The notes below the pieces were generated by a model, which saw nothing but the letters and a program-made list of their open reading frames with translations, was not told the DNA's origin and searched no databases. A program made the translations under genes and the position numbers. DNA of 64,000 nt from Blautia sp. (GTDB taxonomy: Bacteria > Bacillota > Clostridia > Lachnospirales > Lachnospiraceae): assembly GCA_017475035.1 (NCBI GenBank), contig JAFVGK010000031.1:1-64000 (forward strand), read 5' to 3'. Shown in pieces: positions 1 to 15,421 of this stretch (its first letter is position 1; each line of letters opens with the position of its first letter).

Positions 1-1
1 A

Positions 2-406
2 TCGAAGCGGAAGAACATCTGGGAAAGCCTCGGCAACAACATGGATCGTCAGGATCGGATCGACGAGGAATTCGACGACGGACTGGCCGAGGGAGGACCA
101 AGGGAAGGTCTGAACGAGAAGCCGTATCCGATTACGGCGGAAGAATTTGCGAATGAGAATCGGCACTTTGACAAGACTACCATCTTTTACTATGGGGACG
201 GCACCGCGGTGGACCAGTCGGACTACAGAGAACGTCTGATCGATGACCTAGACCAGTTGATCGGCAGAGACAATCTGCGTCAGTTGGGTGTTCTGGCGGA
301 TGACGAGGGTGTCGTCCTGATTCGAAATGAAATGAGGAGCACGGACTATGAGATCATCCTTCAGGAAGGGAATTATATTCCTGACAGTGCTCCCGTGCCT
401 GACTGA
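2..406 (+). CDS. Left-edge partial phage protein of unknown function
   Basis: The reading frame is open from the first complete codon and no Shine-Dalgarno precedes the internal ATG at 41, so this is probably the C-terminal part of a longer protein cut by the window edge. The visible 134 residues are acidic, with no membrane segment and no motif I recognise. Its TGA overlaps the ATG of the next gene (TGATG), so the two are likely translationally coupled in the early operon that leads into the replication module. Confidence 0.6.
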   Translation, partial: SKRKNIWESLGNNMDRQDRIDEEFDDGLAEGGPREGLNEKPYPITAEEFANENRHFDKTTIFYYGDGTAVDQSDYRERLIDDLDQLIGRDNLRQLGVLADDEGVVLIRNEMRSTDYEIILQEGNYIPDSAPVPD

Positions 407-930
407 TGGATTACTTCTCATGGCTATGCTTCTGGGCTGTGCCGGACGGAAGTAAACGCAGAGACTATTCGCAACTACTGCTCGCATTGCATGATATTCC
501 ATTTCGATGGAGTGTCGCGCACGATGAAAACAGGGCCGGGGATGGGCTTCAGCTCCGGTCCATTTATGAGGATGAGACCGGCGAATGGTGCGATGAAGAG
601 AGTCCGGACTGTACGCTTCTGGAGATGTTTCTGGCTCTCGCCATTCGCTGTGACACCGAAATCATGTACGATCCGGACGATCTTAACCGGGCGGATCGGT
701 GGTTTTGGATGATGATGGAGAACCTCAAGCTGGACAAATTCACGGATGAAAATTTCGATTATGGACAGTTTTTGGATATTTGTGGACAGTTTATGGACAG
801 AAATTATGGCAAAAGTGGACAGTTTTGTCCGTTTTGGGTTCCGGATTTGTCCATGAAAATGCGGAAAATTGAGCTGTTTTATCAGATGAATTACTACTTG
901 AAATGGCGTTTTCCGCGGTTTTTTGAGTGA
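406..930 (+). CDS. Conserved phage early protein of unknown function
   Basis: 174 residues, soluble, rich in Trp, Asp and Tyr, with blocks such as LLLALHDIPF and LLEMFLALAIRC. I recall this type of protein as common just upstream of phage primase/helicase genes, but no function is established to my knowledge. It starts on the stop codon of the preceding gene. The last third has a shifted base composition and holds several TGGACAG repeats, so its C-terminus may be shaped by a DNA-level signal rather than by protein function. Confidence 0.7.
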   Translation: MDYFSWLCFWAVPDGSKRRDYSQLLLALHDIPFRWSVAHDENRAGDGLQLRSIYEDETGEWCDEESPDCTLLEMFLALAIRCDTEIMYDPDDLNRADRWFWMMMENLKLDKFTDENFDYGQFLDICGQFMDRNYGKSGQFCPFWVPDLSMKMRKIELFYQMNYYLKWRFPRFFE

Positions 931-990
931 AATCGGCTATTTTTAGGCCAAAAATGATTTTTTGTAGCCACAATATGGACAAATGGACAA
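731..990 (+). repeat. Cluster of TGGACA repeats
   Basis: TGGACA occurs at 731, 762, 783, 794, 816, 976 and 984, four of them as TGGACAG within 60 bases. The cluster crosses the end of the coding region into the spacer before the polymerase gene. Protein-binding or priming sites are possible; nothing in the sequence decides. Confidence 0.5.
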
Positions 991-1133
991 AAACAGCCCT
1001 ATCCCTTTATGAAAAAAAAAAAAAAAAAAATATATAAATAGGGTTTTTAAAAAAAATGTGCCATTTATCCGCCATGTGATTTTTTATGTGAATTTTTCAT
1101 TCGTGAAAGTCCGGTAGAGAGGAGGCCGATTGT
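931..1133. other. Spacer with A-tract upstream of the replication polymerase
   Basis: About 200 A+T-rich bases with a run of roughly 20 A from about 1011, then TATATAAATAGGG and a second A-run. No convincing sigma-A -35/-10 pair is visible. AGAGGAGG near 1118 is the ribosome binding site for the TTG start at 1134. The A-tracts could bend DNA or act as an UP-like element. Confidence 0.4.
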
Positions 1134-4100
1134 TTGGACTTTTTTGAAATCTGGTGGGAGCCGGGAAAGACAAAGAAATCTCCCCCAACGATATTTCCGG
1201 TCTTTGTTGTGAAGAGCAGTAAGGACCTGATGATAAAGGGCGGCAAGTTCTACGCGATCTGGGATTCGGACCGCGGTATATGGTCTACCGATCAGGACGA
1301 TGTGACAAATATGATCGACCGAGAGCTTGCCAAGTATAAAGATGAGCATCCAGAGCTGGAAGGTGCAAAAGTGAAATGGATGCGATACTCAAATTCCGGT
1401 ATCGTGGATCAGTGGAACAAGTATTGCGAGAAGCAGCTTGTTGACAACTTCCATCCATTGGATGAGAAACTGATATTTGCCAACACGAAACCAAAACGGG
1501 AGGACTATTCAACCAAGCATCTGGACTATGCTCTGGAAGAGGGACCGTTCCTGTGCTGGGATGAACTGGTCGGAACATTATATTCTGAAGAAGAGCGGCA
1601 TAAGATCGAGTGGGCGATTGGATCCGTGGTGAGCGGTGACAGCCGGTGGATCCAGAAGTTCCTGGTGTTCTACGGCTCGGCCGGAACAGGTAAGTCCACG
1701 ATTCTGAACATTATTCATGATCTGTTTGAACCATATACCTGTTCGTTCAGTGCACAGGCGCTCTGCAGTGGAACCGACCGATTCGCGCTGGAGCCATTTA
1801 ATGATAATCCTCTTGTGGCGATTGATCACGAGGGAGACCTCAGTAAGATTGAAAACAACACCAGACTGAACGCGCTGGTCTCTCACGATACGATGATCGT
1901 GGACCAGAAGTACGCAAACTTATATTCTCAGCAGTTCAACGCGATGCTGTTTATCGGTACGAACCGGCCGGTGAAGATCACAGACTCTAAAAGCGGTGTA
2001 ATCCGAAGACTGATTGACGTGAGACCGGCAGAGAAGAAGATCCCGATCAAGCGGTACAGATATTTGACTGAGCAGGTGAAGTTTGAGCTGGGAGCCATTG
2101 CATATCACTGTCTGCAGGTCTACCAGGCAGATCCGTATTACTACCAGGATTATATTCCGCAGGACATGATCGGCGCGACCAACGACTTCTATAACTTTAT
2201 GGAAGAGTACGCGCTGGATTTTCGGAAAAAGGAAAACGTGTCCCTGAGTTATGCCTGGACCCAGTACAAAACCTACTGCGCGGAAGCCCAGGTGCCGTAT
2301 CCCTATCCGAAACGGATATTCAAGGAGGAACTGAAGAGTTACTTCAATAGCTTTCAGAGCCGCTTCGGCGGAAGCGAGGACCGAAGATGGAACATGTACG
2401 TCGGATTCAGAGCCGACAAGTTCAAGCATCTGTTTGATGATCTGGATATTTCGGAAAAGGACGCCGTGAAGTCTGACAGTAAGTCTGGGACTGATGGTTC
2501 TGTTGGATCCGTCGGTGCGGCATCTATCAGGCAGGAGGAGCCGGAAGGTCCTCCCAACTGGCTGATATTTGAGAGCCAGCCGAGTGTCTTTGACGCAGCG
2601 TATGCCAACTGCCCTGCGCAGTATGCGGTCTTCAAGGATGACGGCAGCGACAAGCCGGCGGATATTTGGGACAAATGCAGGACGGTCCTCGGCGATCTTG
2701 ACACCAGCAAGCTGCATTACGTGCGGGTGCCGGCGAACCTGATCGTCATCGACTTTGATATTAAGGATCCCGTGACCGGAGAGAAGTCATTTGAGCGCAA
2801 TCTGGAGGCCGCGTCCAAATGGCCGAAGACCTATGCCGAGACGAGCAAGAGCGGCAAAGGAATTCACCTGCATTATATTTACAACGGCGACGTTACGAAG
2901 CTGAGCGCGGTTTACGACGACGAGATCGAGGTGAAGGTCTATCCGGCCGACAAGAAAAGCTCGGTCCGGAGAATGCTGACCGTATGCAACAATCTTGCCA
3001 TCGCGACGATCAGTTCGGGACTGCCGCTGAGAAAGGAGAGCAAATTGGTAAACTTTGACGGACTGAAGAGTGAAAAGGCACTGCGGACCATCATCCGGAA
3101 GAATCTGAACAAGGAGATCCACGCGGACACCAGGTCCAGCATCGATTTCATCAACAAGATTCTGAACGACGCTTATGCGTCCGGGATGAGCTATGACCTG
3201 CGGAACATGCGTCCGGACGTGATCAAGTTCGCGGCGGCAAGCAGCCATCAGGCGGCTTACTGCATCAAGCTGACTTCGCAGATGCCCTTCTGCTCCAAAG
3301 ATATTCTGGACAGTGAGTATGAGGCGGCGAAGGTAGCCGAAGCGGAGTACGATGAGATCGTATTCTTCGACGTGGAAGTGTTCAAGAACCTATTTATCGT
3401 GGTCTGGATGAAGGACGGCGGCGTGCCGGTGAAGATGATCAACCCGAAGCCGGAAGAGATTGAGGAGCTCTGCAAGTATAAGTTAGTCGGATTCAACTGC
3501 AGACGCTACGACAATCATATTCTGTACGCCAGGATGATGGATTACTCGAACGAGGATCTTTATATTCTGAGCAACCGGATCATCAACTCCGATGGCAGCA
3601 GAAGCCCTGCCTTTTTCCGGGAGGCCTACAACATCTCTTACACGGATGTGTATGACTTCGCGGCCAAGAAGCAGAGCCTTAAGAAGTGGGAGATCGAGCT
3701 GGATATTCACCACCAGGAGCTGGGTCTGCCCTGGGACCAGCCGGTGGATGAGGCGCTCTGGCCGAAGGTGGCCGACTACTGCGTAAACGACGTGATGGCG
3801 ACCGCTGCGGTGTTCCACCATCTGAAGGCGGACTTTACGGCGAGGGAGATCCTGGCCGACATCTCCGGTCTGAGCGTGAACGCGACGACAAACCAGCACA
3901 CCACGAGAATTATATTCGGCGACGATCCTGCGCCGCAGGGCGCCTTTGTATATACGGATCTGAGCGAGATGTTCCCGGGCTATGAGTTTGACGAGCGCGG
4001 AATCGATCAGAACAGATATTTGCCGGGGACAAAGATCGTTTCCGGCAAGTCCATTTACATGGGCGAAGACCCCGGGGAAGGCGGGTATGTGTACTCGGAA

Positions 4101-5303
4101 CCGGGAATGTACGAGAACGTGGCGCTGCTGGATATTGCATCCATGCACCCGAGCAGCATTGTGGCATTGAACCTCTTCGGCGATGTGTACACGAAGCGCT
4201 TCTATGATATTATGCAGATCCGTCTGCTGGTTAAGCACGGTGAGTACGAGAAGGCGGCGAAGCTGTTCGACGGTAAACTGGAAAGATATTTGACGGACAA
4301 GGATCAGGCGAAGGCCCTGGCCCAGGCGCTGAAGATCGCGATCAATTCGGTCTACGGCCTGACCTCGGCAAAGTTCGACAACAAGTTCCGGGATCCGAGG
4401 AACGTGGACAACATCGTGGCAAAGCGCGGGGCGCTGTTCATGATCACGCTGAAGAACGAGCTGCAGCGGCGCGGATATTCCGTAGCACACTGCAAGACCG
4501 ACTCCATCAAAATCCCGAACGCGACGCCTGAGATCATCGAGTTCGTGATGGACTTCGGAAAGAAGTACGGCTATACCTTTGAGCATGAGGCGACCTATTC
4601 GAAGATGTGTCTGGTGAATGAGTCGGTTTATATTGCCAAGTACGCGGATGGACCGCACAAGTTCGAGCTGCCGACCGGCGAGGTGATCGAGACTGAGTGG
4701 ACCGCGACCGGGACACAGTTTCAGATTCCGTATGTGTTCAAGGCGCTGTTCGCCAAGAGCCCGATCAAGTTTCGCGATGTATGCGAGACCAAGACGGTCA
4801 GCACGGCATTATATTTGGACTTCAATGAGGATCTACCGGATGTGAGTCTGGAAGAGAAGCAGCTGAAGGCAGTGGAGAAGTGCCTGGCAGACCTGTGGGG
4901 GAAGAACTGGGTTCAGATTCTGGAGGATCTTGGGAACAAGACACCTGACGAGCTGGATCAGATGGATATTTCGCAGGAGACCATTGATAGGTCCAACGAT
5001 CTGATCCGGCAGCATGGACAGCTTACTCAGGATATTTCGAAGGGACACAGCTACGTGTTCGTCGGAAAGGCCGGACTGTTCTGCCCCATGATACCCGGTG
5101 TTGGAGGTGGACTGCTGATGCGGGAAGGTGGAGGCAAGTTCTCTTCCGTGGCAGGAACAAAGGGCTACCGCTGGATGGAGTCTGAGGTGGTTCGGGAATC
5201 CGGCAAGGAAGACCTGATCGACAAAAGATATTACGCGGCACTGGTGGATGAAGCGATTGCGACAATCTCCGAATACGGAGACTTTGAAGCTTTCGCTTCA
5301 TAA
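1134..5303 (+). CDS. Fused SF3/D5-like helicase, AEP primase and family B DNA polymerase
   Basis: A 1,389-residue replication protein that appears to hold three activities. Residues ~130-350 form a P-loop helicase of the D5/SF3 type, with Walker A GSAGTGKS at 181-188. Residues ~485-650 look like an archaeo-eukaryotic primase: VIDFDIKD (D540, D542) and SGKGIHLHY (H578). Residues ~740-1389 are a proofreading family B polymerase: ExoI FFDVEVF (D746, E748), ExoII GFNCRRYDN, ExoIII YCVNDV, motif A LLDIASMHPS (D1000), motif B KIAINSVYG (K1067), motif C KTDS (D1123). Motif C lacks the first Asp of the usual DTDS; I recall the KTDS form from other phage polymerases. The start is a TTG 8-10 bases after AGAGGAGG. 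In P4/D5-type proteins the primase usually precedes the helicase; here the helicase is first. Next come an SSB and an SF2 helicase, consistent with a self-contained replisome. Confidence 0.85.
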   Translation: MDFFEIWWEPGKTKKSPPTIFPVFVVKSSKDLMIKGGKFYAIWDSDRGIWSTDQDDVTNMIDRELAKYKDEHPELEGAKVKWMRYSNSGIVDQWNKYCEKQLVDNFHPLDEKLIFANTKPKREDYSTKHLDYALEEGPFLCWDELVGTLYSEEERHKIEWAIGSVVSGDSRWIQKFLVFYGSAGTGKSTILNIIHDLFEPYTCSFSAQALCSGTDRFALEPFNDNPLVAIDHEGDLSKIENNTRLNALVSHDTMIVDQKYANLYSQQFNAMLFIGTNRPVKITDSKSGVIRRLIDVRPAEKKIPIKRYRYLTEQVKFELGAIAYHCLQVYQADPYYYQDYIPQDMIGATNDFYNFMEEYALDFRKKENVSLSYAWTQYKTYCAEAQVPYPYPKRIFKEELKSYFNSFQSRFGGSEDRRWNMYVGFRADKFKHLFDDLDISEKDAVKSDSKSGTDGSVGSVGAASIRQEEPEGPPNWLIFESQPSVFDAAYANCPAQYAVFKDDGSDKPADIWDKCRTVLGDLDTSKLHYVRVPANLIVIDFDIKDPVTGEKSFERNLEAASKWPKTYAETSKSGKGIHLHYIYNGDVTKLSAVYDDEIEVKVYPADKKSSVRRMLTVCNNLAIATISSGLPLRKESKLVNFDGLKSEKALRTIIRKNLNKEIHADTRSSIDFINKILNDAYASGMSYDLRNMRPDVIKFAAASSHQAAYCIKLTSQMPFCSKDILDSEYEAAKVAEAEYDEIVFFDVEVFKNLFIVVWMKDGGVPVKMINPKPEEIEELCKYKLVGFNCRRYDNHILYARMMDYSNEDLYILSNRIINSDGSRSPAFFREAYNISYTDVYDFAAKKQSLKKWEIELDIHHQELGLPWDQPVDEALWPKVADYCVNDVMATAAVFHHLKADFTAREILADISGLSVNATTNQHTTRIIFGDDPAPQGAFVYTDLSEMFPGYEFDERGIDQNRYLPGTKIVSGKSIYMGEDPGEGGYVYSEPGMYENVALLDIASMHPSSIVALNLFGDVYTKRFYDIMQIRLLVKHGEYEKAAKLFDGKLERYLTDKDQAKALAQALKIAINSVYGLTSAKFDNKFRDPRNVDNIVAKRGALFMITLKNELQRRGYSVAHCKTDSIKIPNATPEIIEFVMDFGKKYGYTFEHEATYSKMCLVNESVYIAKYADGPHKFELPTGEVIETEWTATGTQFQIPYVFKALFAKSPIKFRDVCETKTVSTALYLDFNEDLPDVSLEEKQLKAVEKCLADLWGKNWVQILEDLGNKTPDELDQMDISQETIDRSNDLIRQHGQLTQDISKGHSYVFVGKAGLFCPMIPGVGGGLLMREGGGKFSSVAGTKGYRWMESEVVRESGKEDLIDKRYYAALVDEAIATISEYGDFEAFAS

Positions 5304-5391
5304 GTCTATACGGGGCCGTTTTGTCATGCGCAAATACTGTTTCACAACGAAAGCAACAACGAAGGATTGAGTCTGAAAGGAGACCAAGATT

Positions 5392-5892
5392 ATGGCGAGA
5401 AACAACGTGAACAACATCTGCATCGAGAACGCGAGAATTATATTTCGCAACTTCTCCGGAGAGCCGACAACGTTTAACAAGAACGGCGGGAAACGCACCT
5501 TCAGCGTGGTGCTGGACGAGGATACCGCAGCAAGGCTGAGAGAAGACGGCTGGAACGTCAAGCCCCTGAAGTCCAGGGATCCGGACGAGCCGCCGGCTTT
5601 CCATCTGTCGGTTGAGGCATCCTACCGCAACTATCCGCCGAGAGTCTATCTGATCGCCGGGAAAAAGAAAACTGAGCTGACAGAGGACACGATCAGCACA
5701 CTGGACTACGCCGAGATCAAGAACGCGGATATTATCATCAATCCCTATTCCTGGGAGGTCCAGGGCAAGAGCGGGGTCAAGGCGTATCTGAAGACCATGT
5801 ACGTGACCGTGGTCGAGGATGAGTTCGAGAAGAAGTACCGCGACTATGGCGATGACTCGGACGATGAGGACGACGGCGAGCTGCCGTTCTGA
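5392..5892 (+). CDS. Single-stranded DNA-binding-like protein
   Basis: 166 residues behind a good GAAAGGAG. The body is a beta-rich, OB-fold-sized domain (FRNFSGEPTTFNKNGGKRTFSVVL and onward). The tail ends in a run of Asp/Glu followed by GELPF, which resembles the acidic, aromatic-terminated tip of bacterial SSB that recruits partner proteins. It lies between the replicative polymerase and the SF2 helicase, as expected for a replisome SSB. Sequence similarity to classical SSB is weak by eye, so the call rests on tail, size and context. Confidence 0.7.
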   Translation: MARNNVNNICIENARIIFRNFSGEPTTFNKNGGKRTFSVVLDEDTAARLREDGWNVKPLKSRDPDEPPAFHLSVEASYRNYPPRVYLIAGKKKTELTEDTISTLDYAEIKNADIIINPYSWEVQGKSGVKAYLKTMYVTVVEDEFEKKYRDYGDDSDDEDDGELPF

Positions 5893-5918
5893 CATTTGAG
5901 CATTCGTGAAACTGGGAT

Positions 5919-5962
5919 AAGGGGCTGCCGGACTTTCGGCGGTCCCTTGTCTGATATTTTTC
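5919..5962 (+). terminator. Rho-independent terminator after the SSB gene
   Basis: A 12-bp stem (5919-5930 with 5937-5948, two G-U pairs) with a six-base loop is followed by a T-rich tail containing GATATTTTT. It separates the polymerase-SSB unit from the helicase gene. Confidence 0.7.
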
Positions 5963-5984
5963 GAAAGAAGAAAGTGAGATGCAT

Positions 5985-7223
5985 ATGTCAGTAACACTCC
6001 GGGACTATCAGATTGACGCGATCAACCGGATGCACAACGGCAGCATCCTCTGCGGCGGGGTCGGGTCCGGCAAGAGCCTGACCGCCATCGGATATTACTT
6101 CACGAAGATTGGAAACGGTCTGTTGGACGGTCTGCAACATGGATATTCGGAAGACTATGTTCCAATGACGGATCCGGTGGATCTCTACATCATCACAACG
6201 GCCCGCAAGCGCGACACAAAGGAGTGGGAAGGGGAACTGGCCAGATATTTGATCAGCCCGGATGATGAGGTGAATCTCTACTCCGGGAAGATGAAGGTCA
6301 CGGTGGATTCCTGGAATAACATCAGCAAGTATCAGAATGTGAAGGATGCGTTCTTTATATTTGACGAGCAGCGTGTGGTCGGGTCCGGAGCCTGGGTCCG
6401 GGCGTTTCTGATGATCACGAAAGCAAACCGGTGGATCCTGCTGAGCGCGACGCCTGGTGATACCTGGATGGACTATGTTCCGGTCTTCATCGCCAATGGA
6501 TATTTTAAGAACCGGACCGAGTTTACGCGCAAACATGTGGTATTCAACCGTTTCACCAGGTATCCGCAGGTTGACAGATATTTGAGCCAGGGGGCGCTGA
6601 TCCGGTATCGGAACCAAATTTTGGTGAACATGGATTACAACAAGCCGACGCACGCGCATCATGAGACCCTGGAGGCAGACTATGACAAGATATTGTACAA
6701 ACAGGTGCTGTCTACCAGGTGGAACGTTTTCGAGGACGCACCGATCGTGAACGCGGCGGAGCTCTGCTATGTGGCACGGCGCGTGGTGAATTCGGATCCG
6801 AGCCGGATCGAGATCATCAGGGAGCTTCTGAAGTTTCATCCGAAGGTCATTATATTTTACAACTATGACTATGAACTGGAGCTGCTGAAGAGTGCCGACT
6901 GGGGTGAGGACTTTGTGGTCGCGGAATGGAACGGACATCGGCATGAAGCGATTCCGCGAAGTGATCACTGGATCTATCTGGTGCAGTACACAGCCGGCGC
7001 TGAAGGCTGGAACTGCATTGAGACGGACACCATTATATTCTACTCAATGAACTATTCCTACAAGATCATGGTGCAGTCCGCCGGGCGCATCGACCGGATG
7101 AACACACCGTTTACGGATTTATATTACTACCGTATCAAGTCGCTATCGTCTCTCGATCTCGCGATCTCCAGAGCTCTGAAGCGGAAACAGAACTTCAACG
7201 AGAACAAGTTTCTGTCAGGCTGA
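5985..7223 (+). CDS. SF2 DNA helicase (SNF2-like)
   Basis: 412 residues. Walker A GGVGSGKS lies near residues 24-31, the Walker B-type IFDEQR near 130, motif III LLSATPGD near 155, and motif VI QSAGRIDRM with the following LYYYRI near 365-380. This is the two-RecA-domain layout of phage SNF2-like helicases that act in replication or recombination. The start at 5985 is preferred to the in-frame ATG at 5979, because AAAGTGAG then sits at normal spacing. The gene is dense in the GATATT/TTATATT word. Confidence 0.85.
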   Translation: MSVTLRDYQIDAINRMHNGSILCGGVGSGKSLTAIGYYFTKIGNGLLDGLQHGYSEDYVPMTDPVDLYIITTARKRDTKEWEGELARYLISPDDEVNLYSGKMKVTVDSWNNISKYQNVKDAFFIFDEQRVVGSGAWVRAFLMITKANRWILLSATPGDTWMDYVPVFIANGYFKNRTEFTRKHVVFNRFTRYPQVDRYLSQGALIRYRNQILVNMDYNKPTHAHHETLEADYDKILYKQVLSTRWNVFEDAPIVNAAELCYVARRVVNSDPSRIEIIRELLKFHPKVIIFYNYDYELELLKSADWGEDFVVAEWNGHRHEAIPRSDHWIYLVQYTAGAEGWNCIETDTIIFYSMNYSYKIMVQSAGRIDRMNTPFTDLYYYRIKSLSSLDLAISRALKRKQNFNENKFLSG

Positions 7224-7242
7224 CAGCCGCCTGGAAGGAAAG

Positions 7243-7380
7243 GCCTCGCGAAAAATACATACCTTATAATAGAGGGGATACGCTTTTACGCGTATCTTTT
7301 ATATTTCTCACGCGGGCCTCGCGAAAAATACATACCTTATAATAGAGGGGATACGCCTTTTGCGCGTATCTTTTATATTT
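7243..7380 (+). promoter_or_regulatory. Tandem promoters, each with a 5'-terminal hairpin (two 73-bp repeats)
   Basis: Two near-identical units. Each has CTCGCG (7245, 7318), exactly 14 bases, then TATAAT (7265-7270, 7338-7343). Seven bases after each -10 begins a GATACGC/GCGTATC hairpin (7277-7296, 7350-7370) followed by T-runs; the second is very long (~20 T). Because the hairpin sits at the likely transcript start, it may cap and stabilise the 5' end rather than terminate. The promoter form recurs at six other places. The unit precedes the nuclease gene at 7433. Confidence 0.75.
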
Positions 7381-7432
7381 TTTTTTTTTTTTTTTGGAAC
7401 ATTTGGAACGAATTCAGAAAGGACGAACAGCT

Positions 7433-7741
7433 GTGGCCAGGAAGAAGCGCGAGAACGAGTTTCAGCCAAAACTCATCAAAGAACTGAAGGATCGCTTCGA
7501 AGGCTGCATCGTGCTGAAGAACGATCCGAATTATATTTCCGGGATCCCGGATCTGACCGTGCTCTACGGTTCGCACTGGGCGTTCCTGGAAACCAAGAGA
7601 GATGAAAATGCGGCTCATCGTCCATTACAGGACTACTACGTCGAGCATGGGAATGAGATGTCCTTTGCTCGATTTATATCTCCAGAAAACAAGGAGGAAG
7701 TGCTGAATGACCTTCAACAATCATTTCAATCTGGTGGGTAA
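7433..7741 (+). CDS. VRR-NUC-like nuclease
   Basis: 102 residues. NDPNYISGIPDLTVLYGSHWAFLETKRDE carries the G-PDL...ETK pattern of VRR-NUC-type PD-(D/E)XK nucleases. Phage members of this family are usually encoded beside SNF2-like helicases and are thought to resolve branched DNA. The start is GTG 7433, nine bases after AGAAAGGA. An upstream in-frame ATG at 7394 falls next to the poly-T tract and has no ribosome binding site. The gene overlaps the next by 35 bases. Confidence 0.8.
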   Translation: MARKKRENEFQPKLIKELKDRFEGCIVLKNDPNYISGIPDLTVLYGSHWAFLETKRDENAAHRPLQDYYVEHGNEMSFARFISPENKEEVLNDLQQSFQSGG

Positions 7742-8264
7742 GCACGCGTTCCTCAGCGCGTCTAAGTACACCTGGATCAATGACGATGAGGAGAAGCTGA
7801 TGGCAAGATATTCGAACTTCCTTGCCGTCGAACGGGGAACCAGGCTGCACGACTTCGCCAGGCAGGCGATTGAGCTCGGCATCAAACTCCCCAATACCAA
7901 GAAGACGCTGAACCGCTATGTCAACGATGCCATCGGGTATCAGATGACACCGGAGCAGCCTTTATATTTTTCCGAGAACTGTTTCGGCACGGCCGACACG
8001 ATCTCTTTCAATAAGAACCTTCTGCGCATCCATGACCTTAAGACCGGTGTCACGCCGGCACATATGGAACAGCTGATGATCTATGAGGCGCTGTTCTGTC
8101 TGGAATACCGGTACAGCCCGAAGGACATCGACGTGGAACTTCGAATCTATCAGCTGGATGATGTGCAGATCGAGAGCCCTGATCCGGAGGACATCCTGAC
8201 CATCATGGACAGAATTATATTCTTCGATCAGACCATTAACAAAATGAAGGAAGAGAGGAGATAA
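7707..8264 (+). CDS. RecB/Cas4-like PD-(D/E)XK nuclease
   Basis: 185 residues starting at ATG after AAGGAGG. The core GTADTISFNKNLLRIHDLKTG shows the D...(h)DLKTG arrangement of RecB-family exonucleases, and RLHDFARQAIELG upstream fits the helical part of the fold. It lies between the VRR-NUC gene and the RNA polymerase, so a role in replication-linked recombination or end processing is likely. Confidence 0.75.
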   Translation: MTFNNHFNLVGKHAFLSASKYTWINDDEEKLMARYSNFLAVERGTRLHDFARQAIELGIKLPNTKKTLNRYVNDAIGYQMTPEQPLYFSENCFGTADTISFNKNLLRIHDLKTGVTPAHMEQLMIYEALFCLEYRYSPKDIDVELRIYQLDDVQIESPDPEDILTIMDRIIFFDQTINKMKEERR

Positions 8265-8267
8265 GCC

Positions 8268-11033
8268 ATGCCTGAGAGATCAGGATATTTGAAACACTGG
8301 CATGTCGGTTACCTGGAGCACTACGGAACGCCGAGGCATTCGGGAAGGTATCCCTGGGGATCCGGAAAGAATCCGAGGCAGAGTCTGAACCGCCACTTCA
8401 TCGCCCGTGACCGTGAGCTGAAGGCGCAGGGCCTGACTGAGAAGCAGCGTGCCAAGGCCTGGGACATGACGGTCGTTGAATATCGTGCAAGATATTCTGC
8501 GGCATCCAACGCGGCCAAGAAGGAAGACATCGCCAAAGTCAAGAAGATGCACGATCACGGCGACAGCAACATGGCAATCAGCCGGGCAACCGGGATTCCC
8601 GAGTCGACGATCCGAAACTATCTGAGACCGGAGTTCGAGGCCAGACGTGATACAGCAACGAAGATCGCTGAGGAGCTGAAGCTGCAGATCGAGGAGCGGC
8701 CCTATCTCGATGTCGGTAAGGGCGTGGAGACGCAGCTCGGCGTCAGCAGGGAGCAGCTGAAGACTGCGATCGAGATTCTGAAGCAGGAAGGATATTCTGA
8801 GCACCGCATCGGGATCCGACAGACGACCGATCCGTCGAAGCAGCTGAACGTGAAGGTCCTCACCAAGGGTGATGTCAGCTACAGCGATGTGCTGGCGAAC
8901 AAGGAAAAGATATCCTCGCCGCATGGCGTCAAGTTTGAGGACTATGCCGATACGGTCAAGCATATGGAGCCGCCGAAGAGCATCAGCTCCGACCGTGTAC
9001 AGATCAGGTATGCCGATGATGTCGGTCCGGATGGAGCCACAGGCCTTGACAAGGACGGTGTTATTGAAATTCGCGAAGGCGTTCCGGATCTGGATATCGG
9101 CGGGAACCGCTATGCACAGGTTCGCATTGCTGTCGACGAGACACATTACCTCAAGGGTATGGCGATGTACAGTAACAACCTTCCGGATGGCATTGATATT
9201 GTCTTCAACACCAACAAGAGCAGCGACACCCCGATGATCAACCGCGAGGACAAAGACCATTCGGTCCTGAAGCCGATGAAGAAGGACAAGGATGGGAATA
9301 TTGATATTGAGAACCCCTTTGGTGCCACCGTGAAGGACCAGAGGGGTGCTCTTAATATTGTCAATGAAGAGGAAGACTGGCAGAAGTGGTCCAAGACGCT
9401 TTCGGCGCAGTTTCTCTCCAAGCAGTATCCGACGCTCGCGAAGAAGCAGCTTGACAAGACGCATCTTGAGCGGGTTGAGGAGTTTAAGGATATTTGTGAG
9501 CTGACGAATCCGGTTGTGAAGCGGAAACTGCTGGAGGACTTTGCGGAGAGTTGTGACTCGGCGTCCGTGCATCTGAAGGCGACTTCGTTCCCGCGTCAGG
9601 CGGCTCATGTGATATTGCCGATCAGCAGTCTGAAGGACAATGAGATCTATGCTCCAAACTATGACAACGGTGAGGAGGTCGTGCTTATTAGATATCCTCA
9701 CGCCGGTGTGTTTGAAATTCCGAGACTGATCGTGAACAACAACAATCCGGAAGGCAAGGCTCTGCTCAAGCAGGCGAAGACTGCGGTCGGGATCAATGCT
9801 CATGTGGCGGCTCAGCTTTCCGGTGCGGATTTTGACGGCGATACAGTTACGGTTATTCCGACCAGAGGCCTGAAGATTCGAACCGACAAGCCCTGGAAGA
9901 AGCTTCAGGATTTTAACCCAAAGACGGAGTATCCGCCCTATGAGGGAATGCCGCGTGTTGGCCCTGATACGGGCTTCCACAAGCAGACCGAGATGGGTAA
10001 GGTCTCCAATCTGATTACCGATATGACCGTGAAGGGTGCGACGCCGGAAGAGATCACGAGAGCGGTTCGGCATTCGATGGTTGTCATCGACGCCGAGAAG
10101 CACAATCTCGACTGGCGAAAGTCCGAAGTCGACAACGGTATTGCCGAGCTGAAGAAGAAGTACCAGGGTAAGGCGACCGGTGGTTCGGCCACATTGATAT
10201 CTCGCGCCAAAAGCGAAGCGCATCCTTACGAGTATCGTGAGAAGCGCGTCAACGAGATGACCGATGAGGAGAAGAAGCGTCATGCAAACGGCGAATTGAT
10301 ATTCGTCGAAACGGAGCGTCTGATGCGCGACAAGAACGGCAATTATACCAAACGCGCAACGATTAACTCCACCAAGATGGCTGAAGTATTCCGGGAAGGG
10401 AAAGATGCAACCGCGCTCTCCTCCGGGACGATCATTGAGGATATCTATGCCGATTATGCCAACAAGACGAAGGCTTTGGCGAACGCTGCAAGGAAGGAAT
10501 TATATTCTACCGGCAGGCTTGTGCTTTCGCCTTCTGCCAAGAAGACGTATGAGGTGGAACGGGCGTCATTGATATCCAAACTGAATATGGCCAAGAAGAA
10601 TGCACCGCTGGAGCGCCAGGCGCAATTGATATCCGGCGTGAAGGCCAGAACCCGCATTGAGGCCAATGGAATTGAGGACAAAGACGAGATCAAGAAGATT
10701 CGTCAGCAGGAGCTTAAGCGTGCCCGTGAGAACGTCGGCACCCGGTCCAGGAATCCTAAGGCCAAGAACTCGCTGTCCATTAAGGTCACCGACCGTGAAT
10801 GGGAAGCAATTCAGGCTGGCGCGATCTCGCATTCCCAGCTTGAGGAGATTCTGAAGTATTGCGACATGGATGAGATTCGGCAGAGAGCCACACCGAGAAA
10901 GAGCACGAGAGGAATGACTTCTGCTGTTCGTTCCAGAGCGAGAAGCCTTCTGAACCGTGGATATTCTCAGGCTGAGGTTGCAAGTGAGCTCGGCATCTCC
11001 GTGTCGACACTGGTACGTGAATTGGATCTGTGA
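8268..11033 (+). CDS. Two-barrel (YonO-like) single-chain DNA-dependent RNA polymerase
   Basis: 921 residues. The decisive feature is AAQLSGADFDGDTVTVIP, with D521-F-D523-G-D525. This is the metal-binding DxDGD loop of double-psi-beta-barrel RNA polymerases such as SPbeta YonO, crAss-like phage polymerases and eukaryotic RdRps. The preceding ~150 residues fit the second barrel and the following helical region a bridge/trigger-like segment. Two HTH-like segments are visible: near residues 95-125 (NMAISRATGIPESTIRNYL) and at the C-terminus (YSQAEVASELGISVSTLVREL). These could give promoter recognition without a sigma factor. The N-terminus carries HYGTPRHSGRYPWGSG, which resembles the HYG..GMKWG tag of five head-region proteins. 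The start ATG follows AGAGGAG closely after the nuclease gene. Confidence 0.8.
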   Translation: MPERSGYLKHWHVGYLEHYGTPRHSGRYPWGSGKNPRQSLNRHFIARDRELKAQGLTEKQRAKAWDMTVVEYRARYSAASNAAKKEDIAKVKKMHDHGDSNMAISRATGIPESTIRNYLRPEFEARRDTATKIAEELKLQIEERPYLDVGKGVETQLGVSREQLKTAIEILKQEGYSEHRIGIRQTTDPSKQLNVKVLTKGDVSYSDVLANKEKISSPHGVKFEDYADTVKHMEPPKSISSDRVQIRYADDVGPDGATGLDKDGVIEIREGVPDLDIGGNRYAQVRIAVDETHYLKGMAMYSNNLPDGIDIVFNTNKSSDTPMINREDKDHSVLKPMKKDKDGNIDIENPFGATVKDQRGALNIVNEEEDWQKWSKTLSAQFLSKQYPTLAKKQLDKTHLERVEEFKDICELTNPVVKRKLLEDFAESCDSASVHLKATSFPRQAAHVILPISSLKDNEIYAPNYDNGEEVVLIRYPHAGVFEIPRLIVNNNNPEGKALLKQAKTAVGINAHVAAQLSGADFDGDTVTVIPTRGLKIRTDKPWKKLQDFNPKTEYPPYEGMPRVGPDTGFHKQTEMGKVSNLITDMTVKGATPEEITRAVRHSMVVIDAEKHNLDWRKSEVDNGIAELKKKYQGKATGGSATLISRAKSEAHPYEYREKRVNEMTDEEKKRHANGELIFVETERLMRDKNGNYTKRATINSTKMAEVFREGKDATALSSGTIIEDIYADYANKTKALANAARKELYSTGRLVLSPSAKKTYEVERASLISKLNMAKKNAPLERQAQLISGVKARTRIEANGIEDKDEIKKIRQQELKRARENVGTRSRNPKAKNSLSIKVTDREWEAIQAGAISHSQLEEILKYCDMDEIRQRATPRKSTRGMTSAVRSRARSLLNRGYSQAEVASELGISVSTLVRELDL

Positions 11034-11049
11034 AAGGAGCTGATTATGT

Positions 11050-11289
11050 ATGAAAGTAGCGTTCCTTACGACTATTGATAATCCGTACGATCCGCATGAT
11101 CAGTTCGATCAGTGGCTCGCGTACGATACTGTGAATGGGTACAATACCTGTGGATATTTGGCAAACATTGCAAATACATCGCCTGATGCATCTCAGGCCG
11201 ATAACCAGTTTGCCGTCGAGGCTGCAATTGATGAGATTGTGGCTTTGAATCTGCCAGGTAATCTGAAGAAGGTTGTCAAGGAAATTTGA
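11050..11289 (+). CDS. Small conserved phage protein downstream of the RNA polymerase
   Basis: 79 residues with the NPYDPHDQFDQWLAYD...YNTCGYLANI pattern that I recall as a regular companion of this polymerase type. AAAGGAG lies 9 bases upstream. It may be a polymerase partner, but no domain is recognisable. It is the last gene before the 1.3-kb noncoding region. Confidence 0.7.
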   Translation: MKVAFLTTIDNPYDPHDQFDQWLAYDTVNGYNTCGYLANIANTSPDASQADNQFAVEAAIDEIVALNLPGNLKKVVKEI

Positions 11290-11340
11290 TTATTGATTTT
11301 CTGGGCTTTCGTTTTTCATTCATTCCTCCGAAGGGCTATG

Positions 11341-11370
11341 AGACAGCTGATGAACATAAGTCAGCTGTCT
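11341..11370 (+). other. Perfect 10-bp hairpin
   Basis: AGACAGCTGA pairs exactly with TCAGCTGTCT around a 10-base loop. No T-run follows, so it is more likely an RNA-stability or protein-binding element than an intrinsic terminator. Confidence 0.6.
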
Positions 11371-12313
11371 TATAGTCTGACTAAGAGACGATGGATATTT
11401 GTTGTGCTGCCTATAGAACTTATGACACCCAAAAGAAGAACGATTTGAGCGAAAAGTATGGATATTTATACCCCTATCTCCATTTAGCCCCTGTGTTATC
11501 GAGGGCTGAATCTTTTAGGACTAAGGTGCATTAACCAAAACTATTGATTTTTGCGTTTTCTTTAATTTTTTCATTTTCAGTGCTTATTTCAGAGCTCTAA
11601 ACATGAATATCAAGCTTTAAAAATGGTCTTTTTGGACTCTGTAAGAACAATCGCCTTATTGATATTGCATGTCATTAAATACCACCTAAAAATAGCATCA
11701 AATATCATTTACAAGCCGAATTCTATTGATATTGCATTAGTACCGTTGCTTTAATGGTAATTGACTATAGCACATATACGTGCAAGCGAACTATTGATAT
11801 TGTAGAATCAGCTCTATAATGCCTTTCTTGGCTATTTGCAGGCCTTCTGTGAGATGTCGTGACTATAGTTATGGATATTTACAAAGTGCTTTGAGTGAGC
11901 TTACATGCACTATAGAACACCTATAGGAGCAGCCTAACTATTGATTTTTACAGAAACATACTATGTAACACTTAAAGTATTAGTATTAACAGTTATGGTT
12001 TAGGTTACTTCATGCCAAACTATTGATTTTTGTGAACAACTCTTTGTAATACAGCATACTTTACAACAAGTTTGAGTACTATTAATAATGCTTTTAAGCA
12101 TTAGAAAGTTTATTGATTTTTAAGAACGTTTGTTTAAGTAATAAAACTAAATAAGTTTATGTGGTTCTACAACAACTTAACAAAACTATTGATTTTTGAA
12201 ACTCAAATGAATGCTATTTAACAACTTTTGTTTTAGTTTCATAACTTTTTAATAAAAATTTTAATAAAAATAAATAAAAAATTTAATTACAAAACTATTG
12301 ATTTTTGAAACTG

Positions 12314-12355
12314 AACACCCACGGGGGTGTTTCCAAAAACAGGCCCCCGGGCCTG
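12314..12355 (+). other. Two adjacent G+C-rich hairpins
   Basis: AACACCC/GGGTGTT (12314-12331) and a CAGGCC/GGCCTG hairpin (12340-12355) sit directly after the last AACTATTGATTTTTG copy. They end the A+T-rich part of the noncoding region and could act as a terminator or boundary. Confidence 0.5.
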
Positions 12356-12423
12356 CATCGAGTGCGCCTTTTAAAATTCTCCGGAGGTGATATTTTCAAG
12401 ACCTCTATGAAACTCTCGGTGAT

Positions 12424-12587
12424 ATTTTTAAGCATTTTTTACAGGAGCGCGGGTTTTTCTTGCACTTTTTAGTGTTGCCCTCCAGTCATTGCTGAGCTCT
12501 CCTTTCACTGTTCATGATCGGCCTCCTTTCAACCTACCGTCCACTTACTATTACCCACCCGCGCTTCTGTAAAAGGTGCTTAAAAGT
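12424..12587. other. Long inverted repeat enclosing two anti-Shine-Dalgarno sequences
   Basis: Arms 12424-12454 and 12557-12587 pair over 31 positions as RNA, with about four G-U and no mismatch, enclosing ~102 bases. The loop holds CTCCTTTC (12499-12506) and CCTCCTTTC (12522-12530), like the 3' end of 16S rRNA. Read on the minus strand these are strong ribosome binding sites in front of two micro-ORFs (9 and 6 codons; ATGs at 12515 and 12489). Confidence 0.65.
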
Positions 12588-12623
12588 CTATACAAACTTC
12601 GACCAAGAAGAGGTGAACTATGA

Positions 12624-12986
12624 ATGAGTCGAACAAAAGCTATACAAAACTCCACAAAAGAGCCTAAGAACCGGCCGGCAAGAACGGCTGAGGCTCGTGA
12701 AAACCAATTAATAGCTCTCGCATATGACCTAGCTGAAGAACGGCTTAGAAATGGGACAGCCTCTTCGGCTGAGATCGTCCAATGGATGAAACGTGGATCT
12801 CAGAAAGAACGCCAGGAACTTGAGCTCACTAAGAAAAAGATGGAGCTCATGCAGGCAAAAGTAGAAGCCCTTCAATCTGCAAAGCATGTTGAAGAGCTCT
12901 ATGGCGAAGCGATAGTGGCTTTCCGTCGCTACAATGGAGTGTTTGATGAAGGTGAGGATGTTGACGATGGAACTGACGAATTCTGA
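12624..12986 (+). CDS. Small phage protein; candidate small terminase or terminase-adjacent protein
   Basis: 120 residues. AEARENQLIALAYDLAEERLRNGTASSAEIVQWMKRGSQKERQELELTKKK has an HTH-sized helical front and a coiled-coil rear, then an acidic tail. I recall such proteins next to HNH endonuclease and packaging genes, where a small-terminase role has been proposed. AGAGGTGA lies 7 bases before the ATG. A short alternative frame from ATG 12620 runs only 15 codons. Confidence 0.6.
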   Translation: MSRTKAIQNSTKEPKNRPARTAEARENQLIALAYDLAEERLRNGTASSAEIVQWMKRGSQKERQELELTKKKMELMQAKVEALQSAKHVEELYGEAIVAFRRYNGVFDEGEDVDDGTDEF

Positions 12987-13004
12987 TTCTTTGGTGATCT
13001 GCCT

Positions 13005-13418
13005 ATGAGAACTTACTCCGAACTGATTCAGATCCCGAGCTTTATTGAACGCTATCGATATTTGAGGATGAGCGGGACGATTGGGGAAGCGACGTTCGGG
13101 TTTGACCGATGGCTGAACCAGACATTTTATCGATCTCCTGAATGGAAAAAGATCCGCAGGGAAGTGTTACTAAGAGACAATGCCTGTGACCTTGCGCATC
13201 CGGACTATCCGGCGTCAGGAAGGCTGATTATTCATCATATGAATCCGATCACCGAGAAGGACATTGTTGAGAGATCAGAGACTCTGCTGGATCCTGAGTA
13301 TCTGATTACGACAACTCATGATACTCATAACGCGATTCACTATGGTGATGAGTCTCTGTTGGTGTCAGACATTCCGATTGAACGGTATCCGAATGATCTG
13401 TGTCCGTGGAGACTTTAA
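13005..13418 (+). CDS. HNH endonuclease
   Basis: 137 residues. WKKIRREVLLRDNACDLA...GRLIIHHMNPIT...LDPEYLITTTHDTHNAIHY matches the HNH fold, with the central HH and the late H...N...H. HNH genes beside terminase are typical of phages with cohesive-end packaging, where the nuclease assists terminase. The usual zinc-binding CxxC pairs are not evident. Its end overlaps the convergent minus-strand gene by four bases. Confidence 0.8.
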   Translation: MRTYSELIQIPSFIERYRYLRMSGTIGEATFGFDRWLNQTFYRSPEWKKIRREVLLRDNACDLAHPDYPASGRLIIHHMNPITEKDIVERSETLLDPEYLITTTHDTHNAIHYGDESLLVSDIPIERYPNDLCPWRL

Positions 13419-14017
13419 TCGGTTGAACTTCTCAGCATGTTTATCGTGTTTATCAAATCTGTTCTGGTTGCTTCCCACTGGCGGTACTCGGCACTGTTTT
13501 CACTGAGAGTATACCTCAGACCGGTGGTTTTAATCAGCGCCGAATCGTAGTCTTTAATCTCGAGATCTTTCTGAATTTCATTGAATAGATTATTGAGCCT
13601 GTCGAGCTCTACTGCTTTTGCTTCGGCTTCTTGCTTAGTATAAGCTGAGTGCCGAATACTGTAGCCAAGGTCGTCAATGATTCCAGAAGTTACAATCAGG
13701 AACAGCGCGGCTATTATACCAAATATTATCAGAGCGATTTTCCAGGTCTTGCTGCCATGTTTCTTTGATTCTTTTCTTTCCTCAGAACGGATTTTTTCGA
13801 TTGTTGTGCGCTCGGAAGCTGCGATTGACGCCTGCTCTAGTTTTGAGTCGAAGGCTTTGTCTATGACTTTTGCAGCAATTTTACTGCGAACAACCGAAGG
13901 GTTTTGTCCGTCGAGTACGATTTTTGTTCCGCAATACTTGCAGAAGAAGGTGTCGACTCCGTTCTCTACTTCAAGATCGGCGGAACAGTTTGGACATTTC
14001 AATTGAAACATGTTCAT
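13415..14017 (-). CDS. Zinc-ribbon membrane protein
   Basis: 200 residues. An N-terminal zinc ribbon CPNC...CKYC (residues ~8-35) is followed by a basic linker, one membrane segment (IALIIFGIIAALFLIVTSGII) and a coiled-coil domain, probably outside the membrane. First of three minus-strand genes in an otherwise plus-strand phage, so probably an accessory gene expressed in the lysogen. Cell-surface change or superinfection exclusion is a guess from topology. Confidence 0.7.
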   Translation of the reverse strand: MNMFQLKCPNCSADLEVENGVDTFFCKYCGTKIVLDGQNPSVVRSKIAAKVIDKAFDSKLEQASIAASERTTIEKIRSEERKESKKHGSKTWKIALIIFGIIAALFLIVTSGIIDDLGYSIRHSAYTKQEAEAKAVELDRLNNLFNEIQKDLEIKDYDSALIKTTGLRYTLSENSAEYRQWEATRTDLINTINMLRSSTD

Positions 14018-14049
14018 GATTAGGATTCCTTTCTAAAATTCAAAATGGT

Positions 14050-14316
14050 TTACACGATCACTTTTACTACCACGAAGACCAAACCAACGATTATCATCAC
14101 GATCAACGCTGATAGGATGAGGAATAATTGTACCGGCTTTGAGATCCTGAATCCTTTGAAGAATTTCATGATCAGATAAATCGTGCTAATTGCCGCAAGA
14201 ATTCCCAGTACAATGATCACGGTATCGGATGCTTTGAAAATTAGACTGAACACAAAACAAATACATATCATAACGGCTATCGCGGACGTGTTTGACATTT
14301 CTTCAGAGAATTTCAT
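14050..14316 (-). CDS. Small membrane protein
   Basis: 88 residues with about three hydrophobic segments (AVMICICFVFSLIF, VIIVLGILAAISTIYLI, LFLILSALIVMIIVGLVFVVV). GGAAAGGA lies before the ATG on the minus strand. It is the middle gene of the minus-strand accessory island. No family recognised. Confidence 0.65.
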   Translation of the reverse strand: MKFSEEMSNTSAIAVMICICFVFSLIFKASDTVIIVLGILAAISTIYLIMKFFKGFRISKPVQLFLILSALIVMIIVGLVFVVVKVIV

Positions 14317-14355
14317 GCTATCCTGTCCTTTCCGAAATTCAAAATGGATTTGTAA

Positions 14356-14640
14356 TTATAGGGTTAGTATAAAGTCAAAAACATACAGTACAGCAACAAT
14401 GAGCAGCAGGGCTATCAGTATGAAAACGGCGATTTTCAGCATTACGCTGAAGACCGGCCAGAAGTCGTGAATTAGGATACATATTTCTATGAGCGCTACG
14501 ATGCCGATGATAGCTGTTACAACATTAAAGCCGGTGAAGATCAGACACGGAAGAAAAGCGGCGACTGCCAGTCCGCCTATAATTTCACCTATGGTTTGAT
14601 GGTCTCCTTCCGAATAAGTTCGTTTACGACGATTCTTCAT
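14356..14640 (-). CDS. Small membrane protein
   Basis: 94 residues: a basic head (MKNRRKRTYSEG) then three or four hydrophobic stretches. It has a GAAAGGAG site and is the promoter-proximal gene of the minus-strand island. Similar design to its neighbour, so the two may act together. No family recognised. Confidence 0.65.
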   Translation of the reverse strand: MKNRRKRTYSEGDHQTIGEIIGGLAVAAFLPCLIFTGFNVVTAIIGIVALIEICILIHDFWPVFSVMLKIAVFILIALLLIVAVLYVFDFILTL

Positions 14641-14687
14641 GTCGGCTCTGAACTCCTTTCAGGAACAATATTACGGCTGCTACCGTT

Positions 14688-14716
14688 ACTATAGCATAAG
14701 AAAAAGCATTTGAAAA
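14688..14716 (-). promoter_or_regulatory. Sigma-A promoter with extended -10 for the minus-strand island
   Basis: On the minus strand: TTTTCA, 17 bases, then TGC-TATAGT. The -10 is extended by TG. It sits ~50 bases upstream of the ATG at 14640 and likely serves all three minus-strand genes. Confidence 0.6.
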
Positions 14717-15413: not shown

Positions 15414-15421
15414 TTAGCAGC

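Follow-up and report, generated by a model that had tools for sequence, protein, structure and literature searches.

A one-strand, spaced array of a short word in the genome of a tailed phage and its relatives

The DNA analyzed here, which we call the window, comprises the first 64 kb (positions 1 to 64,000, forward strand) of the 90,374-bp contig JAFVGK010000031.1 in the Blautia sp. assembly GCA_017475035.1. The contig bears a tailed phage: replication genes lead up to a single-chain RNA polymerase, and terminase, portal, head and tail genes come after it (Table 1). Our subject is a short word on the plus strand, ATATT preceded by any base other than A (B-ATATT) and preferably followed by a pyrimidine (Y). 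The analysis shows that this word, (C)B-ATATT-Y, forms a genome-wide strand-polar array that is independent of frame and gene, that is depleted in the opposite orientation and that is rarely repeated within about 60 bp.

Table 1. Genes and array sites in the window (site positions give the first base of B-ATATT)
Feature	Position	Strand	Remarks
Replicase, candidate reader of the array	1134..5303	+	D5-type helicase part, AEP primase-like part and family B DNA polymerase; homologue of GP55 of phage 1706
Putative phage single-stranded DNA-binding protein	5392..5892	+	PF24083
Helicase	5979..7223	+	
Small protein	7394..7741	+	Homologues in 19/19 other genomes compared; position, just before the exonuclease, matches their "endonuclease"/VRR-Nuc protein (so called in their annotation; Pfam gives no such match here)
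DUF2800-matching protein	7707..8264	+	Homologues in 19/19 other genomes; by position their "exonuclease" (Cas4/RecB-like by annotation)
Single-chain RNA polymerase	8268..11033	+	phrog_4291; helix-turn-helix stretches close to each end; found in relatives with and without the array
Array sites in the replicase gene (n = 27)	1190..5232	+	1190, 1472, 1579, 1921, 2059, 2151, 2315, 2445, 2564, 2661, 2757, 2874, 3300, 3516, 3561, 3702, 3911, 4015, 4131, 4206, 4285, 4474, 4629, 4810, 4965, 5031, 5227
Array sites in downstream replication/transcription genes and gaps (n = 29)	5439..10965	+	5439, 5728, 5953, 6091, 6142, 6244, 6356, 6499, 6577, 6689, 6851, 7034, 7120, 7300, 7374, 7532, 7807, 7963, 8216, 8284, 8491, 8791, 9195, 9303, 9489, 9611, 10298, 10501, 10960
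Dense part of the array	1..12600	+	68 B-ATATT sites, 5.4 per kb; minus strand 7
Sparse part, structural genes	12601..47200	+	44 sites, 1.27 per kb; minus strand 19; coding 37 vs 17.1 expected
Array rising again	47201..64000	+	40 sites, 2.38 per kb; minus strand 8; runs on beyond the window to the contig end at 90,374

A preliminary description of the window had reported an excess of GATATT and TTATATT on the plus strand of the replicase gene, in all three codon phases, and recounting bears this out. The gene holds 18 GATATT (9/5/4 by phase) and 8 TATATT (4/3/1), all of the latter within TTATATT, and none of their minus-strand forms, AATATC and AATATA. The excess over chance is strong, although the earlier estimate of about one GATATT expected was slightly low: 1000 synonymous shuffles gave a mean of 2.27 (maximum 7), and a mean of 0.27 TTATATT (maximum 3). 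Between positions 1190 and 11,033 the plus strand carries 36 GATATT and 19 TATATT, the minus strand 1 and 0; the 56 B-ATATT sites of this span have a median gap of 155 bases, the shortest gaps being 45 and 51. The whole window has 105 GATATT on the plus strand and 12 on the minus strand, far from the equal frequency that would have spoken against a polar signal, and 152 against 34 B-ATATT. The tape measure gene, said to hold about four copies, has 3 GATATT and 1 TATATT.

Protein sequence and codon bias are insufficient to explain these counts, as had been proposed. Open reading frames (ORFs) were taken by a simple longest-ORF rule, on both strands in the earlier analyses and later on the plus strand only (SPbeta excepted). 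In the plus-strand ORFs of the window, GATATT occurs 84 times against 33.4 in a dipeptide-preserving shuffle (maximum 42 in 60), and TTATATT 27 times against 5.0 (maximum 11). Codon nulls are exceeded in every phase (42/21/12 versus 13.4/3.8/0.9). The dipeptide null is exceeded by GATATT in total and in phases 0 and 1, and less so in phase 2 (12 versus 7.0); for B-ATATT, phase 2 is hardly above that null in the window (20 versus 15.5), the contig (29 versus 24.0), Pepy6 (18 versus 15.4) or Bing (20 versus 17.0), two of the related phages described below. The array word is a phage trait and not a habit of the host DNA sampled, because 18 stretches (189 kb in total) from other contigs of the same assembly show no excess of GATATT (84 versus 75.1 expected, z 1.1, in 146 ORFs covering 156 kb). 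The suggestion that the words are confined to the replication and transcription module did not hold: the array spans the whole contig, in coding and intergenic DNA alike, and is denser at 0-12.6 kb and about 50-90 kb and sparser across the structural genes.

The top-enriched coding 5-mer of the contig is ATATT itself (198 versus 74.9), with a preference for G or T before it and T or C after it. A logo pooled from six genomes or loci per group has its information in the core and the adjoining positions, c-B-ATATT-Y; apart from these adjoining positions, no partner motif above 0.05 bits appears within 60 bases of the pooled sites. ATATT preceded by A is unenriched in both host groups (11 versus 11.0 in actinophages, 78 versus 71.6 in the window's group). 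The core, B-ATATT-Y, is thus broader than GATATT and TTATATT, and several other phages use CATATT freely. Word specificity drifts between lineages; in phage Eevee the word has become CATAT(T/C).

Relatives were records with a homologous RNA polymerase or replicase, found through those proteins, and were counted for B-ATATT in sense and antisense orientation (stretches of up to 50 kb for named phages, the full 90 kb for the window's contig). Array-bearing relatives infect Faecalibacterium, Streptomyces, Microbacterium, Gordonia and Rhodococcus. Of the 17 named records examined, 12 were clearly polar, 2 weak or shifted and 3 without the array. Clear polarity is seen in ReqiPepy6 (Pepy6; 159/1), Kenosha (148/4), Bing (101/2), DrGrey (94/0), pSt2402 (91/2), Camille (78/2), DizzyRudy (59/1), Siphovirus 29632 (48/1), Rainydai (44/2), contig89 (42/3) and Scap1 (24/0); FP_oengus (86/30) and the window's contig (266/49) are polar but less strict. 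Argan (53/36) and Eevee (41/14) are weak or shifted, as are stretches around relatives in bacterial genomes of the same genus (105/54 in G014; 192/116 in G011, probably including flanking host DNA). Arthrobacter phage Mudcat (70/76), Lactococcus phage 1706 (99/147) and MT835495 (74/69) are array-free. Among phages of other lineages, the array is absent from FP_Mushu (7/14) and FP_Lugh (6/12), which share the host of FP_oengus, and from phiC31 (1/1); the first 50 kb of SPbeta, with genes on both strands, have 101/100, and ATATT is absent from the top coding words listed there.

Among 127 loci, most from IMG/VR, 62 scored positive, 34 negative and 31 unclear, status being set by strand counts alone and the unclear loci being left out of the trees. 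Some positive loci barely exceed codon shuffles (L126 1.0-fold, L124 and L057 1.5-fold), and the tallies overstate independence, since several loci share contigs (L021/L117, L022/L137, L026/L119, L027/L118, L051/L125). On the polymerase tree the array has a patchy distribution. Its presence or absence takes 8-14 changes on each of ten trees of core proteins, fewer than in all 200 shuffles for six of the trees, with no clear winner. A blastp screen (E 1e-3) of 20 genomes or stretches, with ORFs of four genomes as queries, rows from three of them and families matched in at least three other genomes, found no family common to all array-bearing phages and missing from the array-free ones. The residue column that best separated the two had a balanced accuracy of 0.86 (in the helicase), which is not convincing. 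Among the records and loci scanned, those that are array-free or unclear showed no substitute word of similar strength. Other words drew our attention: 1706 is enriched for GACC on the coding strand (99 versus 50.7), without a spacing rule, and avoids GATC (67 versus 146.8); Gordonia phage Kenosha over-represents the palindrome GGATCC (59 coding versus 14.1 expected; 61 in its 50-kb stretch), the opposite of restriction-site avoidance.

Coding sites were compared with codon shuffles in early and late regions. The late fold exceeds the early in Bing (35 versus 3.8, phases 12/13/10, against 39 versus 5.8; 9.2- and 6.7-fold), DrGrey (38 versus 4.0 and 33 versus 5.2; 9.4 and 6.3) and Scap1 (17 versus 1.9 and 3 versus 1.7; 8.9 and 1.8). 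It is near equal in Pepy6 (26 versus 6.8 and 103 versus 21.3; 3.8 and 4.8) and Camille (20 versus 3.6 and 45 versus 8.0; 5.5 and 5.7), and lower in Kenosha (32 versus 8.8 and 91 versus 14.6; 3.6 and 6.3) and FP_oengus (late 4 versus 4.0, 1.0-fold; early 2.2-fold). The signal is therefore not specific to a module, the late fold being higher in three, near equal in two and lower in two of these seven phages. In the window's contig the counts are 57 versus 8.7 in the first 12.6 kb, 37 versus 17.1 in the late region and 114 versus 42.1 in the remainder. The Scap1 pattern, late but not early, suggests module exchange between array-bearing and array-free phages. Phase 0 (GAT ATT) dominates some modules, such as contig positions 64-90 kb (37/5/6) and the FP_oengus early region (40/3/9).

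Most sites lie inside genes and are distributed throughout their length (45-71 per decile). The gaps between genes are polar as well, in the early regions of Bing (24/0), Pepy6 (28/0), Kenosha (20/0) and FP_oengus (18/5) and in the window's contig (11/4 and 34/2); late intergenic sites of FP_oengus are not (6/5). In the gaps displayed, sites stand in promoter spacers, after terminators, before ribosome sites and beside apparent TATAATGAGACCCC promoters, and one replaces a -10 element. Minus-strand genes are almost absent from these phages; the integrase and gp68 of FP_oengus hold 1+3 genome-plus and 2+2 coding sites, too few to decide which strand is followed. A separate feature of these gaps is a promoter/leader cassette that phages of Streptomyces, Gordonia and Rhodococcus (L150, L157, L146) have in closely similar form: many of their tiny early genes are preceded by TATAATGAGACCCCTAC and then an AAAGGA-like stretch.

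We then considered the opposite orientation. Site codons were held fixed while the remaining codons were shuffled, because the sites use up rare T-ending codons. The set that we call clostridial is the window's own group; the name is a label and not a host assignment for its IMG/VR contigs. Antisense B-ATATT is depleted in six actinophages (9 versus 59.9) and in eight loci, several of them close relatives of one another, from the window's group (106 versus 220.8); it is neutral in the array-free Mudcat (63 versus 52.6) and 1706 (127 versus 126.0). The palindrome AATATT is also neutral (11 versus 11.0 and 78 versus 71.6). Part of the depletion in actinophages is general, because they also deplete TATAA (30 versus 65.9) and TAATA (10 versus 43.0). 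In the window's group TTATA (383 versus 380.3) and ATATC (184 versus 197.1) are neutral, and TAATA (137 versus 177.8) and TATAA (233 versus 274.4) are mildly low.

The sites also keep their distance from one another. Against a null in which they were jittered by ±1 kb, gaps below 60 bp number 0 of 158 in Pepy6 (28.4 expected, standard deviation [sd] 4.1), 2 in Kenosha (28.5), 3 in Bing (12.5), 2 in DrGrey (11.1), 2 in Camille (8.1), 6 in L125 (28.9), 14 in the window's contig (51.6) and 6 in the window alone (27.5, sd 4.0; median gap 198). The effect is weaker in FP_oengus (6 versus 10.7, sd 2.8) and absent from the array-free Mudcat (7 versus 7.2) and 1706 (9 versus 11.0). Median gaps are 128-381 across array-bearing phages. 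When all 5-mers present in 35 or more copies were scored blind for absent close pairs, ATATT ranked first in four of seven array-bearing genomes (Pepy6, z -4.9; Kenosha, -5.1; Bing, -2.6; the window's contig, -3.6), as did the drifted ATATC in Eevee (-2.5). The scan gave no spacing signal in Camille or FP_oengus, and Scap1 has too few sites for scoring. The minimum among array-free, weak and control genomes was -2.4 (phiC31), so that Bing and Eevee are marginal on their own.

Variants of the word are excluded near full sites too. In eight actinophage-type records, ATATC (30 versus 75.7), TTATT (10 versus 32.4), GTATT (16 versus 35.0) and ATTTT (6 versus 24.6) are all low there, and ACATT, CTATT and ATGTT are neutral; the sense enrichment of the excluded variants is 1.67-fold for ATATC, 1.71 for TTATT and 0.92 for ATTTT. 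This assay is not clean, since GC-rich words such as CGGCG (136 versus 194.8), AATATT (2 inside, 16 outside) and antisense B-ATATC (9 inside, 74 outside, ratio 0.45) are also low near sites. The clostridial set has a smaller exclusion (B-ATATC 0.56, BATTTT 0.63, BTTATT 0.77, BGTATT 0.93).

Sites are mostly retained above background. Between Bing and pSt2402, which are 90% identical, 66 of 80 aligned sites are intact (82%) against 52% for other AT-rich 6-mers; the figures are 22 of 61 (36% against 18%) for Bing and DrGrey, 19 of 57 (33% against 17%) for Bing and Rainydai, and 10 of 43 (23% against 18%, hardly different) for DrGrey and Rainydai. The preliminary description had asked whether positions or only densities are conserved among relatives: density is kept while positions turn over, and positions are conserved in part, above background in three of the four pairs.

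Three properties of the array thus go beyond what had been described before: its wrong orientation is depleted, its spacing has a floor and its specificity drifts. We infer that a protein encoded by the phage reads the array directly on the phage DNA. A DNA-level signal is favored over one read on mRNA because of the minus-strand depletion and the intergenic polarity; of the two kinds of role put forward earlier, a genome-scale one therefore fits best, and an RNA role is disfavored by the depletion of the wrong orientation. Our leading guess, a tentative one, is that the sites are one-strand start points for the phage's own DNA synthesis. Since genes and sites share a single direction almost throughout, this would require a fork that travels round the genome in one direction only and leaves the plus strand exposed as the lagging-strand template. 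Each fragment would be begun at the nearest B-ATATT-Y by the replicase, which unites helicase, AEP primase and family B polymerase, or by a partner; the final pyrimidine would be the first base copied, and a purine would be placed opposite it. A site every 130-400 bases would suffice, and a second within 60 would be useless or harmful; a site on the opposite strand would start synthesis in the wrong direction.

Several observations are consistent with start sites: the polarity with its phases and nulls, the occurrence in unrelated hosts, the depletion, the spacing, the scarcity of the enriched variants ATATC and TTATT around full sites, the conservation and the AEP primase-like domain. The D-x-D and S-x-S-G-x3-H residues expected of such a primase are invariant in 19 aligned replicase sequences, the window's included. 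PF09250 (Prim-Pol) matches 10 of 19 replicases (best E 0.0013), the window's protein being below the Pfam cut-off. The window's replicase is 51% identical to GP55 of phage 1706 over residues 477-1228, and GP55 is described as combining helicase, primase and polymerase in one protein, with RNA priming at template 5'-CCAAC-3' (2025; PMC12205980). NrS-1 PrimPol is likewise described as requiring an 8-nt template sequence (PMC7102993). The phage thus encodes a helicase-primase-polymerase of the GP55 type, and such enzymes start at short template words, as does T7 gp4.

Against start sites, the strongest point is that CCAAC, the one measured primase site in this family, is neither polar nor clearly enriched nor spaced in 1706 (38 plus, 55 minus; coding 37 versus 30.3, z 1.9). 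The T7 primase sites, (G/T)GGTC, also lack polarity (118/117) and spacing, so that neither word forms a polar, spaced array in the phage to which it belongs. Homologues of the replicase occur in array-free contigs too, and the replicase alone therefore does not bring the array; nor does any gene or residue column separate array-bearing from array-free phages. Priming does not clearly predict that the wrong orientation should be depleted, and how large the depletion is varies with the null, the expectation ranging from 4.7 to 16.6 in Pepy6 (0 observed) and from 2.4 to 3.9 in Bing (2 observed). Start sites stay our first guess only because they agree with the one-way polarity, with an interval of 130-400 bases and with a start enzyme that the phage itself encodes, and because the ATATT array is missing from 1706, in which the primase site was measured.

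The main rival, which we rate as unlikely though close behind start sites, is that B-ATATT-Y is where an enzyme of the phage nicks the plus strand, as at the one-strand interruptions of T5 and of phiKMV-like and tf-like phages. A minus-strand site would then bring the danger of a double-strand break, and short pieces would come free between close sites. Polarity is common to the known nick motifs: the 14 TACT/RTGMC sites reported for tf are all on the top strand (PMC3517423), and 60 relatives of Rembedalsseter are reported to be enriched for its nick motif, measured as a net strand difference (PMC11780129). Relatives of tf are said to have a different main site (PMC3517423), resembling the drift seen here. 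A word over-represented and confined to one strand, as expected of nick sites, is what Pepy6, Bing and DrGrey display, and less strictly the window's contig and FP_oengus. Of the phenomena described, these interruptions come closest: they too have short words that are over-represented on one strand and shared within a clade while the consensus drifts. However, tf and Rembedalsseter have 13-14 mapped nicks per genome at a 9-base word, whereas our records or stretches hold 24-266 sites of 5-7 bases, with a 60-bp floor, and these are known as words alone. That floor probably exceeds the piece that would melt off. Minus-strand B-ATATT is not specially rare within 60 bp of plus-strand sites (93 versus 97.5 expected, 12 clostridial loci), although antisense B-ATATC is lower there (rate ratios 0.45 and 0.70), and no nickase candidate was found. 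A transcription signal in the non-template strand, that is, pause or entry sites for a phage or host RNA polymerase, is also unlikely in our view. Nearly all genes run with the sites, the 60-75 bp floor resembles a polymerase footprint, and ATATTY and TTATTY resemble the NusG pause word, TTNTTT. The 2017 paper on YonO reports no promoter for it (PMC5467207). Yet the sites spread through genes, only one of those in the gaps displayed is in the -10 place, FP_Mushu and FP_Lugh lack the array in the same host genus as FP_oengus, and a pause word does not predict minus-strand depletion. For a sigma-70 -10 element, TATAAT should be at least equally enriched; sigma-type promoters are disfavored because their core, TATAA, is itself depleted (30 versus 65.9; 233 versus 274.4).

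Chi and KOPS/SRS are oriented short words, lying across genes in any frame, that host enzymes read and in which host genomes are enriched; we know of no spacing floor for either. A polar loading or protection signal of this kind, read by a phage exonuclease or helicase or by a packaging factor, would explain the polarity and a harmful wrong orientation, but it is doubtful. Such words are far sparser than the array, which has about 1-6 sites per kb, the floor is not predicted, and the sampled host DNA has none of the enrichment beyond codon use that marks a Chi site. Acceptance of ATATC did track the exonuclease best among six core proteins (rho 0.41, others 0.15-0.20, 34 shared taxa). This correlation is weak and phylogeny-uncorrected; on larger sets it is equaled by an unrelated early 239-aa protein (0.33, exonuclease 0.31), and it is absent for first-base choice, the other specificity trait (0.02), and we rejected the exonuclease as specificity factor. 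Less probable again is a cleavage or protein-binding site on phage transcripts. The sites do follow the coding strand, in genes and leaders, but an antisense copy should then be neutral and is depleted, though under one dipeptide null the depletion shrinks (Pepy6 0 versus 4.7, Bing 2 versus 2.4, window's contig 42 versus 62.0); and some sites lie in promoter spacers upstream of the -10 element, which read-through transcripts could nevertheless carry. Codon usage, protein sequence, base composition or host habit we regard as a negligible explanation. Phase 0 is dominant in some modules, phase 2 is hardly above the dipeptide null and L126 has no excess, but codon nulls are exceeded in all three phases of the window and dipeptide nulls in total, the sampled host DNA has no excess, and neither the floor nor the intergenic polarity of the early gaps of Bing can come from codons; as a full account, codon usage is refuted. 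Two known oriented systems differ in kind. The EcoP15I sites of T7 all have one orientation (CAGCAG, 0 versus 36 by strand), but the retained orientation shows no clear gain (32 versus 22.5, z 1.9), whereas the array's sense word is about 2-9 times enriched in the clearly polar named records; type III restriction polarity, in which one orientation is lost and the other not gained, was therefore rejected. Mycobacteriophage stoperators are oriented repressor sites of about 13 bp, a few tens of them scattered in the phage genome, mostly between genes; those of the array are mostly inside genes.

The preliminary description knew of no described phage signal of this form, and in open PMC papers we too found no description of the word, of strand-biased phage motifs of this kind or of primase-site asymmetry. 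We rate the signal as real and strong and its mechanism as unproven. That it represents an undescribed class, a frame-independent, one-strand, distance-ruled array of dozens to hundreds of short sites that directs the phage's own replication machinery to the points at which each piece of one strand is begun (or cut), with coding sequence across the whole genome written around it, seems to us plausible, at somewhat less than even chances. If so, hardly any gene of a virus would escape constraint by a DNA-processing machine, in phages of two bacterial phyla (Firmicutes and Actinobacteria). The array would give a testable handle on second-strand copying in phages with a GP55-type replicase, and polarity combined with spacing makes a quick genome test that can be applied to any phage.

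Two further features of the window lie near these genes. Between positions 11,661 and 11,801, within a stretch (about 11.3-12.6 kb) that is richer in AT and has no long ORFs, there are three copies of TATTGATATTG, 67-68 bp apart, perhaps a repeat or non-coding RNA region. At 7300-7400, directly before the endonuclease- and exonuclease-like genes, GCGTATCTTTTATATT occurs in two stretches that resemble each other, and a long T run comes after the second; the two look like a terminator pair.

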